Positions 1 through 39,225 of a stretch of 64,000 bases of DNA are shown here, one piece after another. The notes below the pieces were generated by a model, which saw only the letters and a program-made list of their open reading frames with translations, ran no database searches and was not told the origin of the DNA. Where the stretch lies: the NCBI RefSeq assembly GCF_024713945.1, contig NC_134677.1, positions 3,227,001 to 3,291,000 of the forward strand, read 5' to 3'. The first letter of the stretch is position 1, and every line of letters starts with the position of its first letter. The DNA comes from Dermatophagoides farinae. Taxonomy: Eukaryota; Arthropoda; Arachnida; Sarcoptiformes; Pyroglyphidae. The translations under genes and the position numbers were made by a program.

Positions 1-363
1 AACATATCGCCATCATCATCTTGGCTGATTGTCATCTTCGTCATCCATATTACAATTATACAAGCAAATGGCACATTATACTATACTTGACAGAATACGT
101 GTTTAACATGATAATTCTACAATACATAAAACACATACGTTGTTCGGTCATGGTGATATTGATTTGAATTGTATGAAATAATTTCTACTTCATGTGATAC
201 AATATACGCCCGTGGTCTATGACTTTTTGTTATGGATCAACGGTTTGAAATCACTGATATAGACTAGCATTATGTCAATCAAGAGGAATGGTTTTGATGT
301 ATGTGTCTTTTAGTTGTTGCTGATGACCAGTAACCGGGCAACAGATATGGTGTATATACTTAC
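1..363 (-). other. Start of gene B intron 3
   Basis: AT-rich sequence after the gene B exon 3 donor. No further exon is recognisable, which fits the 2.4 kb length of the equivalent intron in gene A. Confidence 0.6.
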
Positions 364-598
364 AAATTCTCCATATGAATTGCTCCAACGAGTCCACTTG
401 ATACCATCACGAGAATAGTTGAGCCAGAATACTTCGGCAAATTCAACTCCCATACCGTTACCAAATCTTCCTTGTGTGGCTATCTTGGTAATCACAAACG
501 GTTCAGTTAAATTGATTTGAATCCATTCGTGACCGGAATTGGTTTGGTTAATTTGACTGGATGGACACCATGCTCCACCATTTAATTCACGATTCAGT
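364..598 (-). CDS. Gene B exon 3: discoidin domain core
   Basis: Encodes LNREL, GGAWCPSSQ, EWIQINL and IATQGRFGNGMGVEFAE, then YSRDG and GEF. It has the same extent as gene A exon 3, one codon shorter near YSRD. Acceptor TTATATACAG, donor GAATTT|GTAAGT (phase 0). The next exon (end of the discoidin domain) is outside the window. Confidence 0.92.
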
Positions 599-3500
599 CT
601 GTATATAATGACAATGGTTTAATCAAGGCAAACAAACACACACATATTACAATTACAAACCTGGCGTTTTGTGGTCCAACACTTTGTTCATTGTAGCTAG
701 ATGAAGCACTGAGTGCTGAATCGGGTATAACACCGGATTCCATACCGAGAGCATTGATTCCATTCGGCTCACATATGGATGTAAACGTTTGTTCTAACAC
801 AAAAAATCAACAACAATGAAAAATATTAAACAGTGTGAATTTGGGAATAACAATCCAATTAACAATGAGCCAAGTGTGAATATTGTTTTGCTGCTGTTGG
901 CAATAAAATCAATTATATTGATTATAATAATAGCTTCAAGCCAATAATAGTCAACTCTAATGATGATGGCATACTATCTTTCACGGTAACATCACTTCTT
1001 TTGTAGGTTTTATCACATACTACTTGGCATTTTCGAAATTCAGATATTTAAATTAAATTAGCATCCATTCACAATTACAACCTAGTCAACCCATGCAGTT
1101 AGCCAGCCGGGAGCCATATTTTATGTACATTATTATTATACTTTGATCTAGCTATTGCCAATCAAAATTTTACTGTCGCACAAATTTGACGATATAATGG
1201 ATCCAATGAAAAAAATGAAAAAAAAATCGATTCAAATCAGCTAAATGAATGAATACTACCCGGGATTTATTGCATTCAATCATTGCCCAACAGGGCCCAA
1301 AGCAATACAAGTGAAGAAAAAGCAATGCAAGCTATATGCAATCTGTGACAAAATATTGATAGTTATTAAAACCGGATATGGCAGATAGATAGGTTCACGG
1401 GAGCCATATAATATCATGTCGTTAACGGTGTTTTAATTGTATACAAAGCCATTAGTGTAACATGTTAAAGGACGAGTTGAACATGAAATTTTAAATCTTA
1501 GAGAATAAATGGCTAGATTCGTTTAGTGAAATCTTTTTAAACAGTAACATACACAAACAAACAAAACACACCGTTAATGTTCCCATTTTTTTTGTGTACA
1601 ATTCACAACATTAAATGCCATTCATTAGATGCACGATTCAAAAACGATCTAAAAAGTAGAAAAATGAACAATTTTAATCGGCAATAGAATGAATCGATGT
1701 AAAATTTTTTTTGTCAACGACAACTTTGGCTCACACATATAAAAACACAAACACACACACGCAAACAGGATCGATAAAAGTTTTTTTAAATTGATATTTG
1801 AACAAAAAACGAATGAAACGAAAAGAAAAGCCCCCTTCCTAGATGAAAGTAAGAATGGAGCTAGAAAATTAAATTTTATTCTTTTGCAATGTCAAACAAT
1901 TTATTTTGTTTTGACACACACACACACACACGTTTGTACATATAGATTCTAAACGATTTTCGAATATGCTGGAACAATGGACAGACACAGTGTTCACGAT
2001 TCATTGCCAAACAATTAACTCAATAGTGGATGTGATGATCAATCATCAAACAATGGGCTCATCACTATTTTATCATTTATGTCGATGGTAGGGTTACAAT
2101 GTATGTATGGCGTAGGTACCCGGGTATTGGAATCTGGCCATTGTTTTTAGGCCTGATAAATCTATCATTAGGATCTATCTATCTACTGGTTGAAAAAGCA
2201 ATATACTATCATGATTCATCAACAATGGCTGTAATTAAAATATTTCCCCACTCGAATTAATAATTAGAATTTTTTTTTTGATGGGACCATTTGATATTCG
2301 GCCAATCGGACTAGTAACTTGATACTACACACACATTGGCATCCGTTGACATTATCTGCTGCTGCTACTCATTTTGATCATGTAATCGAGAGAAGTTTTT
2401 TTTGTTGGCGGTGGTATATGTTCGATAAGTGTCAAGTTCAGTGAGCTGTATTGTCGTTACATTTGCATACGTTTGGAAATCCACAATTTTTTTTCTGGCC
2501 TGTCATCAAGCCATAGTTGACATTTTGTTTGAATGGAAACATAGAATGTATAAAGAGACAGACAAAAAAGAAGAGAATGAGAATCACTTCACTTGACATA
2601 CACATGAATGACAGCCAAGCCGGTGATCATCGTAGCTACCGTCGTCTTATGATGTTGGATGCTTTGCTTCTATTATGAACTCTGGTACACTTGTCTGTCA
2701 AATAGGATTTCTGATCTCTCAACAACAACTATAAATAAAAAAAAGATGGCCTAGACCAGAACATGGAAGACTTACAAATATAAGACATCGACAATACAAA
2801 CATTGATGATCAAAGAGAGAATTGTGTATAAATTTTGTTTACATTTAGCTTATTATTGAGTATGGTATAGAATGTCCAGCAAGAATATAGCTATCGAGCC
2901 CAGTCAATAGCAAAGGGAAAAACCAAATATTTACATTGGCATTGACCAAATAAAGATCCATACTAAACATTTAACCGAATCTAGACGATTCAAGAATCGA
3001 AGAATGATCATCTATGCATGCTCTGCTATTTTGATGTTGCGATTGAAAAATGACTTTAATTTTCAAAGATTTCCGTGCCAATTGCATCGGATACATTTAA
3101 ATCGACTATGAAAAAGAAAGAGAACGTGCCAAATCAATTACATAGGCAGCCAATTGGGCCGAACGGCAATAAAAAGAAAACTCAACCCATAGTTTGGCAT
3201 TTGATAGAATTGGAGTTGCAAGATGGTTGGATATGGCGAATTCAGGATATGTTTTTATGCGGATAGTTATTCAAATTGGCTAGAATTGGCGAATGGAGAA
3301 AGAGATCCTAGGCGGATGCTAATTATATAAATTGATGATTATATTTCATAGGCAAACGAGTCAGTTAGTTTTTGAGCTTGAATGAATGCTAACATAACGG
3401 AACGGGAGAAGCAGATGTTCAGGCAATTAGTTACAGGAGCTATTCTTTCTATTTTACAACATTCATAGCTATTATGACCGATTTATGGATCAATCAACTA

Positions 3501-26912: not shown

Positions 26913-27359
26913 TCACAGTGTAATGGCAAACAAAAATTGACTTGTTTTTAGTCCAGAACTTAAGATAACTGGATTAAGCCGATGTGGCTGGTTGTTGTTG
27001 TTGTTGTTGATGATGTGATGCTGTACTGATTGCTGTTGTTGTTGTGGTTGTTTCGGTCCTATGCCATTGATATGATTGTTTCGAGCAATGAGAAATTGTG
27101 TAATATCTCTGAATGATGGCCTTATCTGTTCGTTGAGTTGCCAACATTCCAACATGAGATCATAGATTTCTGAAGGGCATGTTGTAGGTCTTGGTAAAGC
27201 CAATCGATATGATATTCTAGTCGTACCGCTTCGTTTTCCTTGATTTGCACCTGATTGCTGATCCATATTCGTTCCATCCAATGATTCATTCACGGTATTA
27301 TGAATCATGTTGCCACTGGCATAAGTGGCCTGATAATATACTGAACTGCTTGAGCAATC
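26913..27359 (-). CDS. Ddr: Gene A exon 9: end of kinase and polyQ/polyN tail
   Basis: Residues 1010-1157. An inserted Ser/Asn/Gln-rich stretch (1010-1055) is followed by the standard kinase end CPSEIYDLMLECW and RPSFRDI (CPxxLYELMLRCW and RPPFSQL in DDR1). After about residue 1105 comes a tail with QPQQQQQ and six Asn in a row that vertebrate DDRs lack, then a hydrophobic end (SQFLFAITL) and TGA at 26915-26913. Acceptor CATAATACAG. Confidence 0.93.
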   Translation of the reverse strand, partial: DCSSSSVYYQATYASGNMIHNTVNESLDGTNMDQQSGANQGKRSGTTRISYRLALPRPTTCPSEIYDLMLECWQLNEQIRPSFRDITQFLIARNNHINGIGPKQPQQQQQSVQHHIINNNNNNQPHRLNPVILSSGLKTSQFLFAITL

Positions 27360-30300
27360 CTGTATTATGGCAATCAAAATGAAAGATCAAGTTTTATTAG
27401 GACATTCATTCAAGCACAACATTAAACTTATGGATTGAGAATATAAAACTTACGTTATTGAGATCACTAACATAGCTTTCATAGGCTGTGAACAATTTCT
27501 GTAAGAATGCATCATCATCCATTTCATGGTGTGGTCTTATCAATGCATAGGTCAAGATCTCCCAGAATGTAACGCCAAAACTATATACATCACTTTTAGT
27601 TGTAAAAGCACCATTGATTAATGCCTCGGGTGCAATCCATCGAAGTGCCACTCCATTACAATATTCATGTGAATTCGAGTTAAGCAAAGCGGCAAAATCC
27701 GTAATCTTTACTCGTAGACTATAGCCATAGATGAGACAATTTTTTGCAGATAGATCCCGATGTACATAGCCCAATGATTCTAGATATTTCATACCGGCTG
27801 CCACTTCACTTCCAATATGTAACAATGATTGTATTCTAGACAAAACAAAACAAGAGAAAAAAATGAATTCATATTCAATACACGATATGAATGGACAACA
27901 ACAACAACAACAACAACAGTAGATTGATGACAAGCATTCGGATTCATTCGATTGTCATCATCATCATCATAATCCGAGCTATATTCAATGCATTTATTGT
28001 AGCGTAAGAAATTGACAAATGACGGGCTGATGGGCAATCATCATCATCATCATAACGCAAAAGTTGTTTCCCATTCTCAAGAACCGCAACACAAACGTCA
28101 TTACTCATCACACACACACACACACACACACACAAACATCTGAACAACAAATAGCGCGAAATTCTGCAATAAATTTTAAGGAAAATCATTTGACAACAAA
28201 AACAACATCAACGATCAACTGTCAAGGGAACAAACAATTGCCTATTTATTAGCTACAAAAGAAAAGCTACTATTCTATTAAATTCTGATTCCTACAGCTA
28301 GCTACAACTGAACTTTTTTATTTTTATTTTTATTTTGCTCTAATGTTGTTGATAGCACATCAGAATAGTGAAATCGATCCGAGACGGCGGAAGAAAATCC
28401 TAAACATTAAGGGACAAGATTTGTTGGTTTGCTGGCGCCAACATGCTCATCATCACAATCATTATCAACACCAAAAATGATAATGGTTTCATGACTGCCT
28501 CCAAATCGGTTCGATTCAAGTCTATCAGAATCGGAACTGACCTAAAAAATAATTGATTAATTTAGCTATCTGGTTGCATTGTTGCAATGAAGTTGTTTGG
28601 TTGTCATCATCATCATCATCATTTGTTGTTTGTCATTAGGAATTGAACAACAATGTTTTCTAAACCAGATTGTTTTTCTCTTTTTTTAAATAATACATAC
28701 CCAATAGATTTTTTATCACAATTACGAAGAAAATGAGCAAGATCATATTCACCACATTCGACAATCATTGCGGTTAAATGAGACGAAGGCGATGATAAAA
28801 ATCCGATCAATTTGGCAATCCGTTCACTTTTTGCCGATATAAACCATTTTGATTTCATTTCATGTAGAAAATCACTTAGTTTATCGTTTTCAAGTGTCTT
28901 TAGTAGAACTAGCGTTTCATTACCGTTATCCTTATCGTCGTTGTTCTTTCCTGTTTCACGATTCATAGCATCCGTTTCCGGTGACAAGTCATTAGCGTAG
29001 CCATTTCTACTACTATTCATCAATAGCTGATGAGATTCATTATGCAATCTAGCCAACATGATTTGGCCATATTGTGAACAGCCCAACTGTTTTTGTATGA
29101 TATCGATTTGTTTTTCACCGATTTCAGGTATGCATTTCATACTTTCCTCGATGAATTCATTACTATTTATCATACCATTTGAACTATACTTTAGTTTCAA
29201 TGTATTGCTACTACTTGTCATAAGATCATCGTTCACTGTAGTCAATTTTCTTTTACTATAAAGATTAAAAATTAAATGAAATTTTTTTAAATGAATTAAA
29301 TCTTTTCAGAGAAAACACTTACTTGTAGATAGTGTTGCATGTCATTCGACCATTAACCGACTGATCGATTGTTGAAGTCGGCTGTATTAAGGTAGATTTG
29401 GTAGCTAACTTTGGAGATTTTGGTATCAAATCGGCCGAAACATAGAATTGTCGTTGAATTAGGCCACCATTGCTGGTTAAAGTTTTTGAATTGATTGCAT
29501 GTTGATGATTAGCGTGTACATTACTGGCCGGAATCTGTTTGGCAAGATTGTAGCAACTGCCATTATCATTCGTTTGTAATTTAGGTTGCGATGAATAAAC
29601 TACGTTAGCAGTGATGTTTGTAGAAGGGGCTGATGATGTTGGCGTCGATTTTCCATTGTTCACATCTTTGGCTGGTTGATGATGACCTCCCATCAGGATA
29701 CGAGTGAATCCTGCACCGAACATGTTGAGATTATTACCCAAATGTCCGACATTTGATGTGTTTTTATTACCAACGTTATGTTGATGTGGTAGAATAGAGC
29801 CATTGGATAAAGCTGACATTATATGATGATAGTTTTGATGTTGTTGCTGTTGTAGATGATGATGATTTGAAATGGCAACATCCGGTACAGCATATTCAGG
29901 ATCGGCTATCGTATTCGAAATCGTACTTGATGTTGAGCTGAAATCTTTTGGCTCACAATATAGAGGTGTTGTGGCCAAATCCTTTGTCAAACAGATAGAC
30001 ATTTCATTCATATCAAATGATGAGAAAAAGCGAAGAGCAGATATATATATTCAGATCAGAACAGACAGCAATAAAGGATTTGTTAGGGAAAAAACAAAAC
30101 AAAAAAGAGAAGCCGATTAGAGCAAAAGGAAAAATAAACCAATCAATCAATCAATAAGGTTAGTTTTTGTAAAAGCTAGCATGAATACCAAAATCCCAAA
30201 GACCCAAAATTGAAAGAGAAACAAAAAAAAACCTAGCACAAAGAACAATTTCGCCATGTCTGGAACACAATAGTTGATCAAAATCAAGAATATTAAATGG

Positions 30301-31253: not shown

Positions 31254-34097
31254 AATAAAACAAAATGATTGCCAAAACAAGCCTTTTTTGGCCATATGGC
31301 ACATGATGTTTGGTCCATTACGATTATTAGAATTTTTTTTTGTTTGGGCAATTTTTCTGATTACATTTTCCAGGTGAGAACAGACAGTTAAACAGTTAAT
31401 GGTGTCGGAAGTTATTCGATCCAGGTATAGACCTTGTTTCGACAACTAGATTATTATGTGTGAATTGTATTGACAGTAGTAGTAATATGTATGAATACCC
31501 CTTGGAACTTGACGGGTTTATAGAATATTGATTTGGATTGCCAGCTAGCTAAGAGACCCACTAACGATGTACACTACAGACATAGACATACCTTCATGCA
31601 GACAACAATATGACCGGCTTTCTCCTTGCGTCTCAAATGTAATCGAAGTAATACTATGACCACTGAACAGATGACAGCAAACAATACGCCAAATACGATC
31701 AAGAAGGTAGTTTGAGGAAATAATGTTCGATCATTGTTGATAGCTGTACTGAATGGTATTAAATTATCATCGTATGACCAATCTAATTGTTCATACGATA
31801 ATGTTGTATTCTCATCGATTGGATTCGTATTGAAAGCCACTTCTGACATCAGTATCCATTTGCTTCCGAATTGAAAATCAAATTTAACGAAACGTGCAGC
31901 TTTGAAATGAAGGTGTACGTCAACATCGCGTGGATTTTCCAGTACCAAATCGGGCATATATTCAAATTCAATCGGCCTTTTTGACCAAATTTGACCATCA
32001 TAGCTGAACCATACTTTGGCACCGGCAAACACCTTAAAAAAGAAAAAAGAATAATTAGATATGGATATCACACGATATGACCCACCTATCTAACGTACCT
32101 GAATCTGTTTTGTGAAAAGATTATGACAATAGAATGTAGCTGAAGTAAAATTGACAATCGAATTGAATTCAAACACCATGGATAGATCCGCATTTTCCGA
32201 TTTCCAACCAATCCATTCATAGCCATAGTTGACTTTATAATTATCATCACCTTTGATACCATCAATCAATTGTCCAAGGCCTCCGTGTAGATAGCCATAA
32301 AAATCCATACGGCCATCGTATGTTAAATCACGTAAATCACCAAAAGAACTGTCTTTATATCCATCCGGAATCGAATAACTAATAGGTACATTATTGTCAT
32401 GTCTACATCCATATAGCTCGAAACGAAGACAAGTTGTTCGTTGATAACTTGCAAATGGTACGATACGAATAAGGCTGATGGCTACCAATGGATGTGGAAT
32501 AATATTCTTATGAGGCGTATAGGTGTCATGATTTCCAATCAATTTCTAAAAAGAGAAAAAAAAGAAATCAGTTAGTATTATAGTGGTTAATGCAAACATG
32601 ATTCACATCGAAACATACGGAAACTTCATTGTTTGATTATGCAAATATCAAAAAATAAAGATAGACAGACATCAAATTTTAACACCCAATACTATGATAT
32701 ACCAGAATCCATATTGGACAAAGGATGTGCCATATAAACACAAACACATCAATGACATGAAGCCAATGTCAATATTTAGTTTACAGAATCAAAAAAAAAA
32801 TTGTGGATATTTCATTTGTAAAGAAAGAGAAAGAAGAAAACCCACAAACCGACGAGAAAAAAAAATTTGCCGAATGCATTGATCATCAAAATGAATGAAT
32901 GATGAATCAGAACAAAATGATCGTACGAAATACAAACAACAACAACAACAACATATAATGAATCGCAACATCAGCAAAGTAATGGGAAAAATTATAGCAA
33001 ACTAGCATATAGGTTAGGTGAGAGCCATATTCAGTTCGAGTGTCTGTGTGCAAGAGAAAATGAATTCCATAGATTAAAGATGAATTATTAAAATCAACTA
33101 CAAACCACATCACCATCAACAACAACAACAACAAACATTATGGTATAGTCAACCAAATAATAGTAATAATGTATTATATGGTCGATGAAATGCAACGGGG
33201 AAAAAAATGTTGAATTCCATTGTAATTTACACCAAAGTGAATTCAAGAACCCGAAAAAAAAAACGATGAAAGAAATAAATAAATAATTGCTTTTGCTGTT
33301 TTGTGGTTACTAATTTTTGACATGTCTTGTATATTCTAACCATTTGATCATAATAATAATAATAATAAACACTGAATAACCACTGAACAAAATACACACA
33401 CACATTGTACATAGGAGAATTGTTTCGGCCAGGCGAAGAAACATTTTTTCGCCCATTTAAAACATCATACAGACACACACAAACACGAACATTGAACATG
33501 CAAGAATTGAATTGAATAAACTAAACTAAACTAAACTGAATTAAGTTTCGTGAGAATAATGTTTTCAACTATAGAATGAAAAGAAAAAAAAAGAATGAAA
33601 ATTTTGAAAAGAAAAAAAATTATAGATTCTTATTATTCTAGTCTATGGCTGCTGTGTTTGATTCTTGTGCGTGTGTGTGTGTGTGTGGTGTTTTCAAAAG
33701 GCGCCAAATATGTCGAGAGTCAAAAACAACCCATCCATCCATATGTAGGTCCTTATTGTGTTTGCTTAATGTCCTTTTAAAGTTTTTCTTTTCAACTATT
33801 ATATGCTACTGTTATGCTTACTTTATAATTGGCGATGAAAATTCGTGCGTGTAAGTGTATGGTTGAAATTGGAATATAATATGCATCACAAACAACAACA
33901 ACAACAACAGAAAATTGGCGACGAGAAAGGCATTAAAATTTAGGCTCAAAAAAAACATCATTAATTACCGAATCCTTTGTTGAATTTTTTTTTGAATCGA
34001 AAATAAATTTTCAGCTGGAAAAAAACTGATCCAACTAAGAAGCTTCTGTTCTGTCATATGAATTATTGTAGAATTTTGTTTCAATAAAGAATCGATG

Positions 34098-34128
<31 letters not shown>

Positions 34129-37100
34129 GGACGACGACAGGTTTAATTAAGAAATACAATTGTTGTTACCAATTGACAGGCCAAAGTGAACTAGAAATTG
34201 AGCATCCTGTACAATACAATATATGACATGTCTAATTGTTTCAGTTATTTGCTGTCGAATTCTGTTGTCTTTTTGTCTAATTACAAGTTGGGATTATATT
34301 GGGATTAGGTTAATATGCTTACACCGACACATACACACACACACACAGAGCAACAAACGCATAGAAATAGATGAAAAATAAAAAAAAAGACACACCAAGA
34401 ATTCATCCTGATGAGAATATTTACAGCTGTAAAAAAAAGCTTTACAGCCCATTTTTTTGATGCAATAGTTGCGTGTGTGAGTAATGATACAAAATTGGAG
34501 ACAGTCATAAAATAACAGCGATTCAGATGAATCCATCTGGTCTGTATGTTGAGAAAAAAAAACGGGAATCAATTTCGTCATTTTTTTTCTCGATAGCAGA
34601 TTGAGGCCGGGCATTAAATCTAATCGAAAATGAATTGAGAAATAAAACAGACATGTAAAACCAAGTTCGTTATTCACAGTGCACGGAATATCATCAATCC
34701 GCGCGTTCTAATTGATTTTTTACTACGTGTCCAATACAATTAGGCAATGGGTGAATTTTTTGTTTTGTTTTTGTTCGAATTGAAATGATTCAATCAGACT
34801 TATTATAGTTCATAATAATAAGCATTCAGTCATTTGATCATGATGATGACATGCAATGTGCCCATAAATGAATCAGTGCTTAGCAGAATTGAAATAAGAT
34901 CAAATGTCATGTCATATAAGTTGAAACTTACATAATCTCCATTCATATCAGTCCACTTATTCCAAGTGGTACCATTATCACGAGAGTACTCGATCCAATA
35001 TTCTTCAGCAAATTCGACGCCCATACCGTTGCCGAATCGACCTTGTGTAGCGATAGCTGTAATTGTATAAAGTTCTTCTAAATCAACTTGGATCCATTCT
35101 TGGCCTGAATATGATGCGCTCAATTGTTTGGATGGACACCAAGCACCACCAGATATTTCACGATTCAATCTATAGAAAAAAAAGTAGACAAAACATTTAG
35201 TTAGTCGTCGTAATAATGATATAAACAACAAAATATTGTATAATTCTAGAACAATTCTATGATTGGCATGGAATTTTTTTTTTGAGTCCAATTTAGAAAA
35301 AGAGTTTCTCATTAGTAAACTTCTTCCATAAGTATCAAGCTCATTATTATTATAATAACAAAAAAAAATTTTACGTACACATACAAACTCATCACAACAA
35401 ATTGGCCACTCACAGATTATCATTATTCATAAAAATATATGAGAGAGATTCATAGTGACACTTGGAAAATCTTAGACAATTGAAATTTTTTGCTCATACT
35501 ATATATTCGCTGTGAAATGTTTATTAATTAATTGCAATACGGAAAAAAGAATTCTGGGTCGATATCTACCACCTTCATTTTCAATAGGATTCAGAATCTG
35601 TAATTCGCGAATAGAATTGCTGATTCTAGCCAGTAATTTTCTTTTTTCATAACTATAATGAGAATATATATGGCGACCATATGGCTTGAATCTCATCGTA
35701 AAACTGCCATTTAATCTAGTAGAAATCGGCCTCTTTTTTTGTCTATGTTCCAACAACAGTAAAAAATTAAACCTGGATCCGAAAATGGAAAATTTCATTA
35801 AAATAATGGTTGCTTGTAGACAATATTCGATTATAACCAACATACATAGAGACAATGGTAGTCGTAAATCAGCACATTGACATTGGAATCATATACGAAA
35901 ATGTATATTCCTTAGGTAAACTTTTATAAGATTACCAACCATTCAAGACACGTGGCTCGTGAAAAAAAAATAAATAAATAAATATTTTTATTGTCATCAA
36001 AGAAAACAAGATACATTACTATCAGACACGAAACAATTCGTCCAGAACCAAAATAATATACATACTATGACATATGGAAACGAACAAAAGAAAAATGAAA
36101 AATGCAGCATATAATACCTATCAAATCGATATTCATGCAAATTAGATTGGTTCGAATTATAGAAGTGCGTGAAAATAGGATCCAAACATCACCGGTAGCA
36201 ATAGTCGTCTACGTATCGGATAATAGCAAGAGGTTGCCTTGTTTTTTTTTTGTTGTCATTGCTCATATCAACGATCGAACAGACACATGCAAAAACACAG
36301 AAATTGGAATGATGTAAACAAAAAAAAAGTAAAACTGAAAACTTCTAAATTTTCCATCATCATGAGTATTCAGGTGCACTTAAATAGATTAAATTGGTTG
36401 CAAATGACATAAAAATAAAAATGAAAACAAAAAAAACAAACTCAACACTCTTGTGGTTTACACCCATATGGTACCAGAAAAAAAGTGATGCCTAACATTT
36501 TTTTCTTTGCTGAAAAGCAGGAAAATAAAAAAAACAAAATTAAATCAGATTCAGAAACAGAAACAGAAAAATACAAATTAAATATCTGTTTGTTATCAGG
36601 AATGATCCGAATCGATTACCAGAAAAAAAATATAAGCAATGAGAAAATGTGGCATCTGGAAATCAAAGTTTCAAAGACTGAATGAGAGAAAAAAATTCAT
36701 GCCCGTTGGCCATAGACTAGCAAAAAAAAAATTTCTAGATGCAATCAAATCCATAAATGGTATACATTAGGTAAACCAACAAAATTTAGATTCATTAGAC
36801 AATGAATTTCGTTCTCATGGCCATTTGTTGCGACCTTTTTTTTGTTTATATTCCCATTATCATAAGGTCAATCGTATTGATGACAGTAGTTTGGTCGGTT
36901 AGTTTGGTTTGATCGTCGACCATTGTGTGTGTGTCTGTGTGTGTGTATGTGCCAGCCGGCAATTAATTACAAACAAACATTGTTGTTACCAAGCTTGTTA
37001 TTAAACAAATTTTCACTTTCCTGTTGTTTTAAAGTCAAAATCAACGATGATGATGAAGATGACGATAGCGGTAGCTAATGATGGTCAGCAATTTGTGCGT

Positions 37101-39225
37101 GTGTTGACTACCGTATGTGGTTTTTGCTTTGGTCTAATGTAGCTAGATCGATTCCATAGTAATTATTAGATAACAATTTCTCATTATAATAGACTATATT
37201 ATCATCATCATCATCATCACGGAAGAATCAATGCTACAATGATTTTGATCATTATATCAGATCAGGAATAGTAAAATTATGTATGACATGGCTAAACAAA
37301 ACAAACCATACATAACCGATTGTATTGTGTTGAGACAACAATATCATAATAATGATGAAAACAGTAGTCATCTTTATAAAACAACAAGGTAGATATAAAG
37401 TTAATTATTTAGATTGAAACAAATCGGACCCGAAAAAAAGACCAATGGCCAATTAAGTCATTGGTATAAAAACAAACAAATATTGAGAGTCAAATAAATT
37501 CACCATGAATGAATGAATTACCTGGCGTTCTGTGGTCCAACCGATTGAAGATTATATGACGAGGATGCTGCTATTTGATGATCACGAATCTCACCCGATT
37601 CCATTCCAAGTGGATATGATTGTCCATTACATAATGATGATGGTATTCGTATCCTATTGCCATCGTCATGTTCATCTATGTACAAATCAAACAAACAAAA
37701 CAAAATTAAAAAAAGCCAATGTATTATTCATTAAAAAGTCAACGATGCGCCCATTATAATAATTACTCTATGCTTCATAATCAAAGCGAACAATGCAAAC
37801 AAACAAACAGAAAAAAAACACTAAAAATGCTATACCATTTACTCATTTGCAATTCTCTAATTATCATTTGTACGCTTGGATGCAACAAGCGGACATTCAA
37901 TGCCATTAACAGTGAATGGTTCCGGTATTGGAATATATGAATATGACATATACCAATATGAATTTTCTTTTTTTTTCTCTTTCTCTCTCTCTCTCTTCCA
38001 TGAATGATGAATGGAACATCCGTCATAATTGTCGAATAGACTAAGAATAACGAATGAATAGCTCGTTTGGAATGGAATGAATATAATGAGATGTGAGAAT
38101 TATTTATTACAATTGATACCATTAATGACATAACAAATGAATTGACCTAGTCGACCTGATCAAAGTCGAGCTATGGCGAATGACCTGGTCGAATGGACCA
38201 CATGGTTCATTATCATCAAATCGACAATGTACATTCGGCCATATGTATGGAGGTGCACGGAAAGTATATAAATGGGAGCAAGTGTCTAAATAGCAATCAG
38301 GCTAAATGATGATTGATCGGTGATCGGTGCTTGCAGCTACATTTACCTTTATTATCTATCTATCGTTTGCTGGTTTTTTTGTGGTCGATTCAATCTGCTT
38401 GATGTGAAGGACAATTGCCAGCCATTATTAGCTAACATCATTGGCCCCCTCAAAGCAAGATTTTGTTTGAATAGAGAGTAAACACCATAGCCATCAGTCT
38501 TGGGCATCATCCAATCATCGAACGAATGCATCCCATCATAAACACATATACATAAACAGAAAGAAAGAAAAAAAGATGGTGATTGCCTCAAGTGTGATTG
38601 AGTAATTATGCCGACAATACATTTTTCATGGTGGAACAAAAAATGTATGAGAATTCATGTGTGCACACATGTATGAGATTGTAATGTCAAATGATAAATA
38701 TGACATTGGCCAACAATGAATGTGGTCGATTCGATTGATTGTGAATCGATGAAGAATTGAATTGAGATAATAAGGTAAAAAAAATAACATCAATCAATGT
38801 TGATCATCAACAAATACCAGTATGAAAAAGAGAGAGAGAGAGAGAAAATGAAGGCAAATAATCTCATTTGAAACAAATTAACTCTGACCAAACCACTGTG
38901 TGTGAGATAGAGAGAGAATGAGAGATAGAGAATCGTTCATCGTTTTGTTCAGATAATCATTCAAAACAGTGGACAGGTTTAAATTGAATAAAGATTTTTT
39001 AATTAAAACACAGTCACACAAAATACACAATGGCCATGGCCATGACGAATCAAAAACATCATACATACAATGTGGCCAGGTGAGAGAGAGAGAGAGAAAA
39101 AAAAGACTATTGTTAATGGAAAAAAAAGAAAAAGAAAAACCAGACAATTGTAATACAATTTGAACAAACAGGACAAATTGGATATGGTCACTTATGCAGA
39201 AGCAAAAATATCGGTTTGAAATTAC

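Follow-up and report, generated by a model that had tools for sequence, protein, structure and literature searches.

The gene that we call A encodes a DDR-type receptor whose kinase domain keeps the Lys-Glu-HRD-Asn-Asp frame around a degraded ATP site, and its two tandem paralogues, C and D, are degraded as well. From these sequences we read the receptors, with a probability of roughly two in three, as docking scaffolds in the manner of PTK7 and ROR that would be phosphorylated by other kinases, in gene A and across the cluster. The initial annotation had dealt with gene A; A is not a single odd gene, for all of the DDRs found in the assembly (62.4 Mb, 22 contigs) turn out to be altered. With three matches to Blo t 5, an allergen family known from mites, the genome resembles that of an astigmatid mite.

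The modelled part of gene A lies on the minus strand, from 37.6 to 26.9 kb of the window (the whole 64,000-nucleotide stretch analysed, C1:3227001-3291000). In its product, a discoidin and a DS-like domain are followed by a transmembrane stretch and, after a long juxtamembrane region, by a tyrosine-kinase domain. The discoidin domain begins at 37521..37613 (in tblastn an exon of gene C aligns here across 30 residues with 77% identity), continues at 34929..35171 with the stretch TQGR...GVEFAE (PF00754, E 7.5e-13; tblastn) and ends at 32093..32536, where the DS-like domain starts (PF21114, E 1.8e-23; tblastn). The DS-like end and the transmembrane helix lie at approximately 31574..32041 (PF21114, E 3.2e-17, at C1:3258829-3259041). 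The juxtamembrane exon at 29323..30018, whose 5' border is approximate, carries the tyrosine motifs described below. Next come the exon at 28701..29255, with the juxtamembrane end and the kinase N-lobe including G-loop, beta3 Lys, alphaC Glu and hinge (splice model, AG acceptor, GTATGT donor), the exon at 27454..27835, with the C-lobe carrying HRDLSAKN, DFA and APE (PF07714, E 3.1e-31; splice sites, GTAAGT donor), and the last exon at 26913..27359, with the C-lobe end and C-terminal tail (PF07714, E 2.2e-8; AG acceptor).

This is the make-up of a DDR: PF00754 is followed by PF21114 above cut-off in A, as in C and D, and in A a hydrophobic stretch (recognized by eye) and the long juxtamembrane region precede a kinase domain that matches PF07714 and in profile is nearest to DDR2/DDR1. 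The joined ectodomain exons have the human DDR1 ectodomain as their best PDB match (4ag4, E 1.1e-38), human DDR1 is also the best non-tandem match of the C-lobe exon, and human DDR1/DDR2, which share the architecture just described, are the best PDB matches of gene A apart from an EGFR tandem chain. A GTDB scan returned four bacterial loci with 25–31% identity over part of the C-lobe, and a scan of viral contigs returned none.

The unusual kinase motifs reported for gene A in the initial annotation are real features of the DNA, and the interval given there, 27454..29255, spans the N-lobe and C-lobe exons. GCSQYG (29083-29066) aligns to LGEGQFG of DDR1/DDR2 and carries Ser at the middle Gly site; DFG is replaced by DFA (GAT TTT GCC, 27699-27691). 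These two motifs, VLLK (28898..28909) and the intact catalytic loop HRDLSAKN (27739..27762), all on the minus strand, each occur once at the DNA level. An independent splice model anchored at Gly755 reproduced exactly the spacing of the residues said to be kept (Lys 816, Glu 829, Asp 909, Asn 914 and Asp 928), and the activation loop, from DFA to APE, indeed has 19 residues and 1 Tyr, compared with 24 and 3 in human DDR1/DDR2.

The N-lobe requires more care. Searched by itself, its exon hits neither a Pfam family nor a PDB kinase, so that the N-lobe of gene A must be strongly diverged, and its identity rests on the reading frame, on the two paralogues C and D, to which it was aligned, and on profiles, through which it was aligned to human DDR2/DDR1. 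A long polar insert separates the G-loop from the beta3 Lys (28700-29100), and a second insert (27000-27360) precedes the stretch RLALPRP, close to where the kinase domain ends. The missing kinase match, together with gene models that rest on genomic sequence, could be taken to mean that the losses are an artefact, produced by a badly chosen exon, by a fault in the assembly or by genes decaying into pseudogenes. We find this highly implausible, as splice sites and frame fit across the kinase exons (29255-28701 is continued in frame by 27835-27454 across consensus splice sites), and two paralogues have parallel losses, with no in-frame stops in their kinase exons as modelled. The idea that another exon supplies a canonical loop or DFG was checked by a motif scan of 26000-64000 on the minus strand, which gave no GxGxxGxV, no DFG in kinase context and three [VIL]A[VIL]K matches, all in frames of 19–37 aa; the scan read single frames only, so an intron-split motif would escape it.

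A genome search with the C-lobe exon of gene A found, after the exon itself, C1:3310415-3310759 and C1:3222826-3223179, which share its contig and strand. The first is part of a DDR gene named D and the second of one named C, each with discoidin, DS-like and juxtamembrane parts of its own (a transmembrane stretch was seen for C). Gene C starts within the first 800 bases of the window, where two of its discoidin exons lie (361..776, minus strand; tblastn, with a PF00754 match at C1:3227379-3227579); the kinase of gene C is encoded at C1:3222.5-3223.5 kb, just beyond the edge of the window. The stretch C1:3310232-3312732 (locus L018, 4232-6732), likewise outside, belongs to gene D. The DDR-specific DS-like domain PF21114 has at least five stretches in the 62.4-Mb assembly, those found all being in A, C and D; these counts are lower bounds, and the search scores best candidates only. 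Beside gene C, at C1:3219002-3221396 (L016, 1002-3396), there are frames that by eye resemble acid sphingomyelinase, with saposin-like and metallophosphatase parts.

All three genes depart from human DDR1 and DDR2, which have GEGQFG, VAVK, DFG and three Tyr among the 24 residues of the activation loop. In A, C and D, respectively, the middle Gly of the G-loop is S, N and S (GCSQYG, GYNKYG, GKSKFG), the beta2 Val is I, C and I, and the beta3 motif is VLLK, VILK and VIVR, with the Ala of VAxK replaced by L, I and I. Further along the domain, the DFG motif reads DFA, DTG and DGA, the hinge stretch is 14 residues instead of 15 in each, and the activation loop is shortened from 24 to 19, 20 and 19 residues. 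Other positions vary among the three genes: the alphaC Glu is E, E and S, the catalytic loop HRDLSAKN, HRDLAARN and HQDLATRN, and the APE Glu E, E and Q (SPQ in gene D), such that gene D additionally lacks the beta3 Lys, alphaC Glu and HRD Arg. In none of the three are GxGxxG, VAxK and DFG, the motifs by which we defined an active RTK, all intact. The loop tyrosines number 1, 3 and 3, so the reduction of paired tyrosines described for gene A is a feature of A and not of the family. Gene D, the most degraded of the three, yet keeps three activation-loop and three juxtamembrane tyrosines. Placement of its beta3 strand by HMM, which gave 'A' and 'T', was rejected in favour of VIVR given the alphaC spacing and the match to A and C, and the regulatory-spine residue RS3 was left out because its alignment column is ambiguous.

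These losses stand out against the other kinases of the genome. As a control we drew 30 loci from 155 PF07714 matches and kept 20 tyrosine kinases, using one profile for all (11 of the 20 had also been used to build it); seven loci with a Ser/Thr-type catalytic loop (L041, L044, L047, L050, L052, L053 and L058) and three without a match to the classification pattern (L054, L056 and L057) were dropped. Among the readable control loci, the middle Gly and beta2 Val are each present in 19 of 19, the beta3 Ala, Lys, Glu and DFG each in 20 of 20, and the HRD Arg in 19 of 20. Hence assembly, organism and method do not yield such losses elsewhere in the sample, and further degraded kinases may occur among the rest of the 155 PF07714 matches. 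One control tyrosine-kinase locus, L034 (C3:1783763-1784548), has HGD instead of HRD; we take it to be a Lemur-type kinase.

What does this damage mean for catalysis? The initial annotation had considered the G-loop and DFA. Gene A is also damaged in the adenine pocket, with Leu for the beta3 Ala and Ile for the beta2 Val, and beside these changes DFA alone is weak evidence for lost activity. The purine pocket is bordered by the beta2 Val and the beta3 Ala, which make up the N-lobe portion of the catalytic spine (partial texts of PMC4718504 and PMC12721161). The middle G-loop Gly is named first among the residues critical to the binding of nucleotide, and of past predictors of activity the best were an intact G-loop together with VAIK; nucleotide binding itself is not reliably predictable from sequence (partial text of PMC4718504). 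Engineered catalytic-spine mutants of KSR1, PKC and Akt likewise have the beta3 Ala or the beta2 Val of the adenine pocket exchanged for a bulky residue (partial text of PMC12721161). They differ in that the residue is Phe, as opposed to the natural Leu/Ile of A, C and D: at the beta3 Ala of KSR1, Phe blocked ATP and Val did not, and the same partial text says of the catalytic-spine sites that Phe alone works. The Leu/Ile at the beta3 Ala in A, C and D may thus not block ATP.

Under the strict definition, a pseudokinase has lost the beta3 Lys, HRD Asp or DFG Asp (partial text of PMC4718504). Gene D qualifies through its Lys-to-Arg change, while A and C keep all three residues, so that gene A is not a strict pseudokinase; what stands of the earlier description is a DDR-type receptor with a pseudokinase-like domain. 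Since the catalytic triad is wholly kept in A and C, gene A (and C) could instead encode a tyrosine kinase that still works, slowly or under certain conditions, its rate merely lowered by the Ser in the G-loop and the Ala of DFA, particularly as nucleotide-binding domains with altered motifs have been described and WNK and CASK are active despite missing canonical residues (partial texts of PMC4718504 and PMC13259870). We consider this unlikely, because four ATP-site positions are changed jointly in A, C and D that are invariant in the readable control loci, and because the G-loop and beta3 pair is the same as in PTK7, which is listed as occluded (PMC13259870). Judging from its residues, gene A is quite probably inactive or of negligible activity.

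Known receptor pseudokinases offer the closest comparisons. Gene A shares with PTK7 the pair of GXSXXG and VLxK (VLVK in PTK7, whose ATP site is listed as occluded), with ROR1/ROR2, also listed as occluded, a full set of beta3 Lys, Asp of the catalytic loop and Asp of DFG, and with RYK a DFG motif that ends in Ala (DNA); the VILK of gene C is found at beta3 in STYK1 (all PMC13259870, Table 2). In its sequence, gene A is a PTK7 G-loop/beta3 signature on a ROR1/2-like, triad-keeping domain. PTK7, ROR and RYK are Wnt co-receptors with other ectodomains and an HKD loop, whereas A and C have HRD. No DDR is among the eight human receptor tyrosine pseudokinases that one review lists (PMC13259870).

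The kinase tree places A, C and D in one group (support 100/99). The kinase-only tree joins C and D (83/71), and does not resolve the order among A, C and D or their link to the human DDRs, so that loss before duplication rests on shared states and not on the tree. The changes common to A, C and D at three pocket positions, in the hinge and in the loop suggest that their common ancestor was already altered, and that DFG, and in gene D the Lys, Glu and HRD, drifted later. Alternatively, the three genes may have undergone parallel loss. In the kinase part, pN/pS is 0.41/0.81 for A-C, 0.44/0.70 for A-D and 0.44/0.78 for C-D, with synonymous sites saturated in two of the three pairs.

Upstream of these degraded domains, A, C and D each have a long juxtamembrane region, and these regions differ from one another for the most part. 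Against this background three tyrosine motifs recur: in A, C and D, respectively, (i) LYCEP, IYCEP and LYCCP, (ii) EYAVPD, EYAVPD and EYAIPD and (iii) FYVSAD, YYASTD and FYASSD, at 29960-29950, 29897-29880 and 29447-29430 on the minus strand in gene A. They are collinear in the three genes, with a chain score of 318 (including 34 from a fourth, weak triple) that was reached by 0 of 5000 composition shuffles (best 133, mean 54). As A, C and D share ancestry, the shuffle test shows homology of the motifs and not phosphorylation; the case for their function comes from the contrast, judged by eye, with the rest of the juxtamembrane region. Motifs 1 and 2 contain YxxP, a Crk/Nck-type SH2 motif, and by our own reading HYAEADIV and NTYAVPAL in the same region of human DDR1 resemble motifs 2 and 3.

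The motifs also bear on whether tyrosine phosphorylation is needed at all. With a well-preserved ectodomain and, in gene D, a heavily degraded kinase, the three proteins could be adhesion or collagen-trafficking receptors or ligand traps in which the kinase fold survives as a relic or as a purely structural scaffold. Against this stand the juxtamembrane tyrosine motifs that all three genes retain, the three activation-loop tyrosines of C and D, and a pN below pS in the kinase part, and we hold it to be quite improbable. With key parts of the ATP pocket lost and the docking tyrosines intact, A, C and D probably signal without kinase activity of their own.

We propose the following course of events. 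The common ancestor of A, C and D would already have been without efficient use of ATP. Its descendants would still sense collagen via the discoidin domain, and clustering on collagen would allow phosphorylation of the YCEP, EYAVPD and YxSxD motifs of the juxtamembrane region by other tyrosine kinases, be it a member of the Src family or a different receptor kinase that an adaptor brings in. These motifs in turn would recruit SH2/PTB proteins. The kinase fold would have been retained for a scaffold role, with the heaviest degradation in D and the lightest in A and C.

Phosphorylation of a catalytically silent DDR has precedent. Work on DDR1 divides the receptors into 'donors' and 'receivers', of which the receiver needs no catalysis: kinase-dead DDR1 is phosphorylated in trans on its juxtamembrane region and activation loop, for which the activity of the donor, and not its own, is needed (partial text of PMC5489314). 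The donor there is an active DDR; no canonical DDR that could serve as partner was found in this assembly, and we propose a kinase of another family in its place. Of the suggestion that gene A may signal through docking tyrosines or a partner kinase, the tyrosines gain direct support from their collinearity in A, C and D. The genome does contain a Src-family kinase (locus L032, whose best matches are Fyn and Src), and a requirement for Src in the activation of DDR2 in vitro has been reported; against our reading, the same report describes no resulting SHP-2 phosphorylation for kinase-dead human DDR2 (partial text of PMC3893797).

An invertebrate comparison is C. elegans DDR-2, which acts with collagen IV and binds SHC-1 independently of its kinase, SHC-1 linking it to a Met-like receptor (partial text of PMC5161311). 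DDR-2 is catalytically active, and the need for this activity in axon regeneration (partial text of PMC5161311) is evidence against easy loss. A partial deletion of a worm DDR kinase also gave defects (n=5/21 compared with 0/26; partial text of PMC10328527).

As for the ligand, binding of collagen is predicted only, from the TQGR motif that A, C and D all keep. Its Arg is presumably the counterpart of Arg-100 of worm DDR-2. That residue is reported as essential in the collagen site of the worm receptor (partial text of PMC5161311). Where DDR1 has the Trp of SSSWS, A has Tyr; judged by eye, C has Tyr as well and D has Phe. Candidate ligands are two collagen IV genes, recognized by NC1 domains that lie about 67 kb apart on opposite strands (C3:6806581-6807305 and C3:6874048-6874782); a genome search for the fibrillar-collagen domain gave no match and is uninformative on absence.

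Receptor pseudokinases are a known kind, and the degraded trio of mite DDRs is probably new within it. We regard A, C and D as new because no paper listed in searches of an open-access library reports a degraded mite DDR in its title or the start of its abstract; neither DDR nor discoidin is mentioned in two pseudokinase reviews (PMC13259870 and one more text). We tentatively suggest that the DDRs of the mite lineage are a family of pseudokinase-only receptors that lost the use of ATP before their tandem triplication and now sense collagen by way of conserved juxtamembrane tyrosines, phosphorylated by kinases of other families. If true, a collagen-binding group of pseudokinases would stand beside the Wnt-binding PTK7, ROR and RYK. 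A genome in which all DDRs are receiver-like would be a natural experiment on collagen receptors without catalysis, and with the graded series of A, C and D one could ask what portions of the kinase fold a scaffold role preserves.
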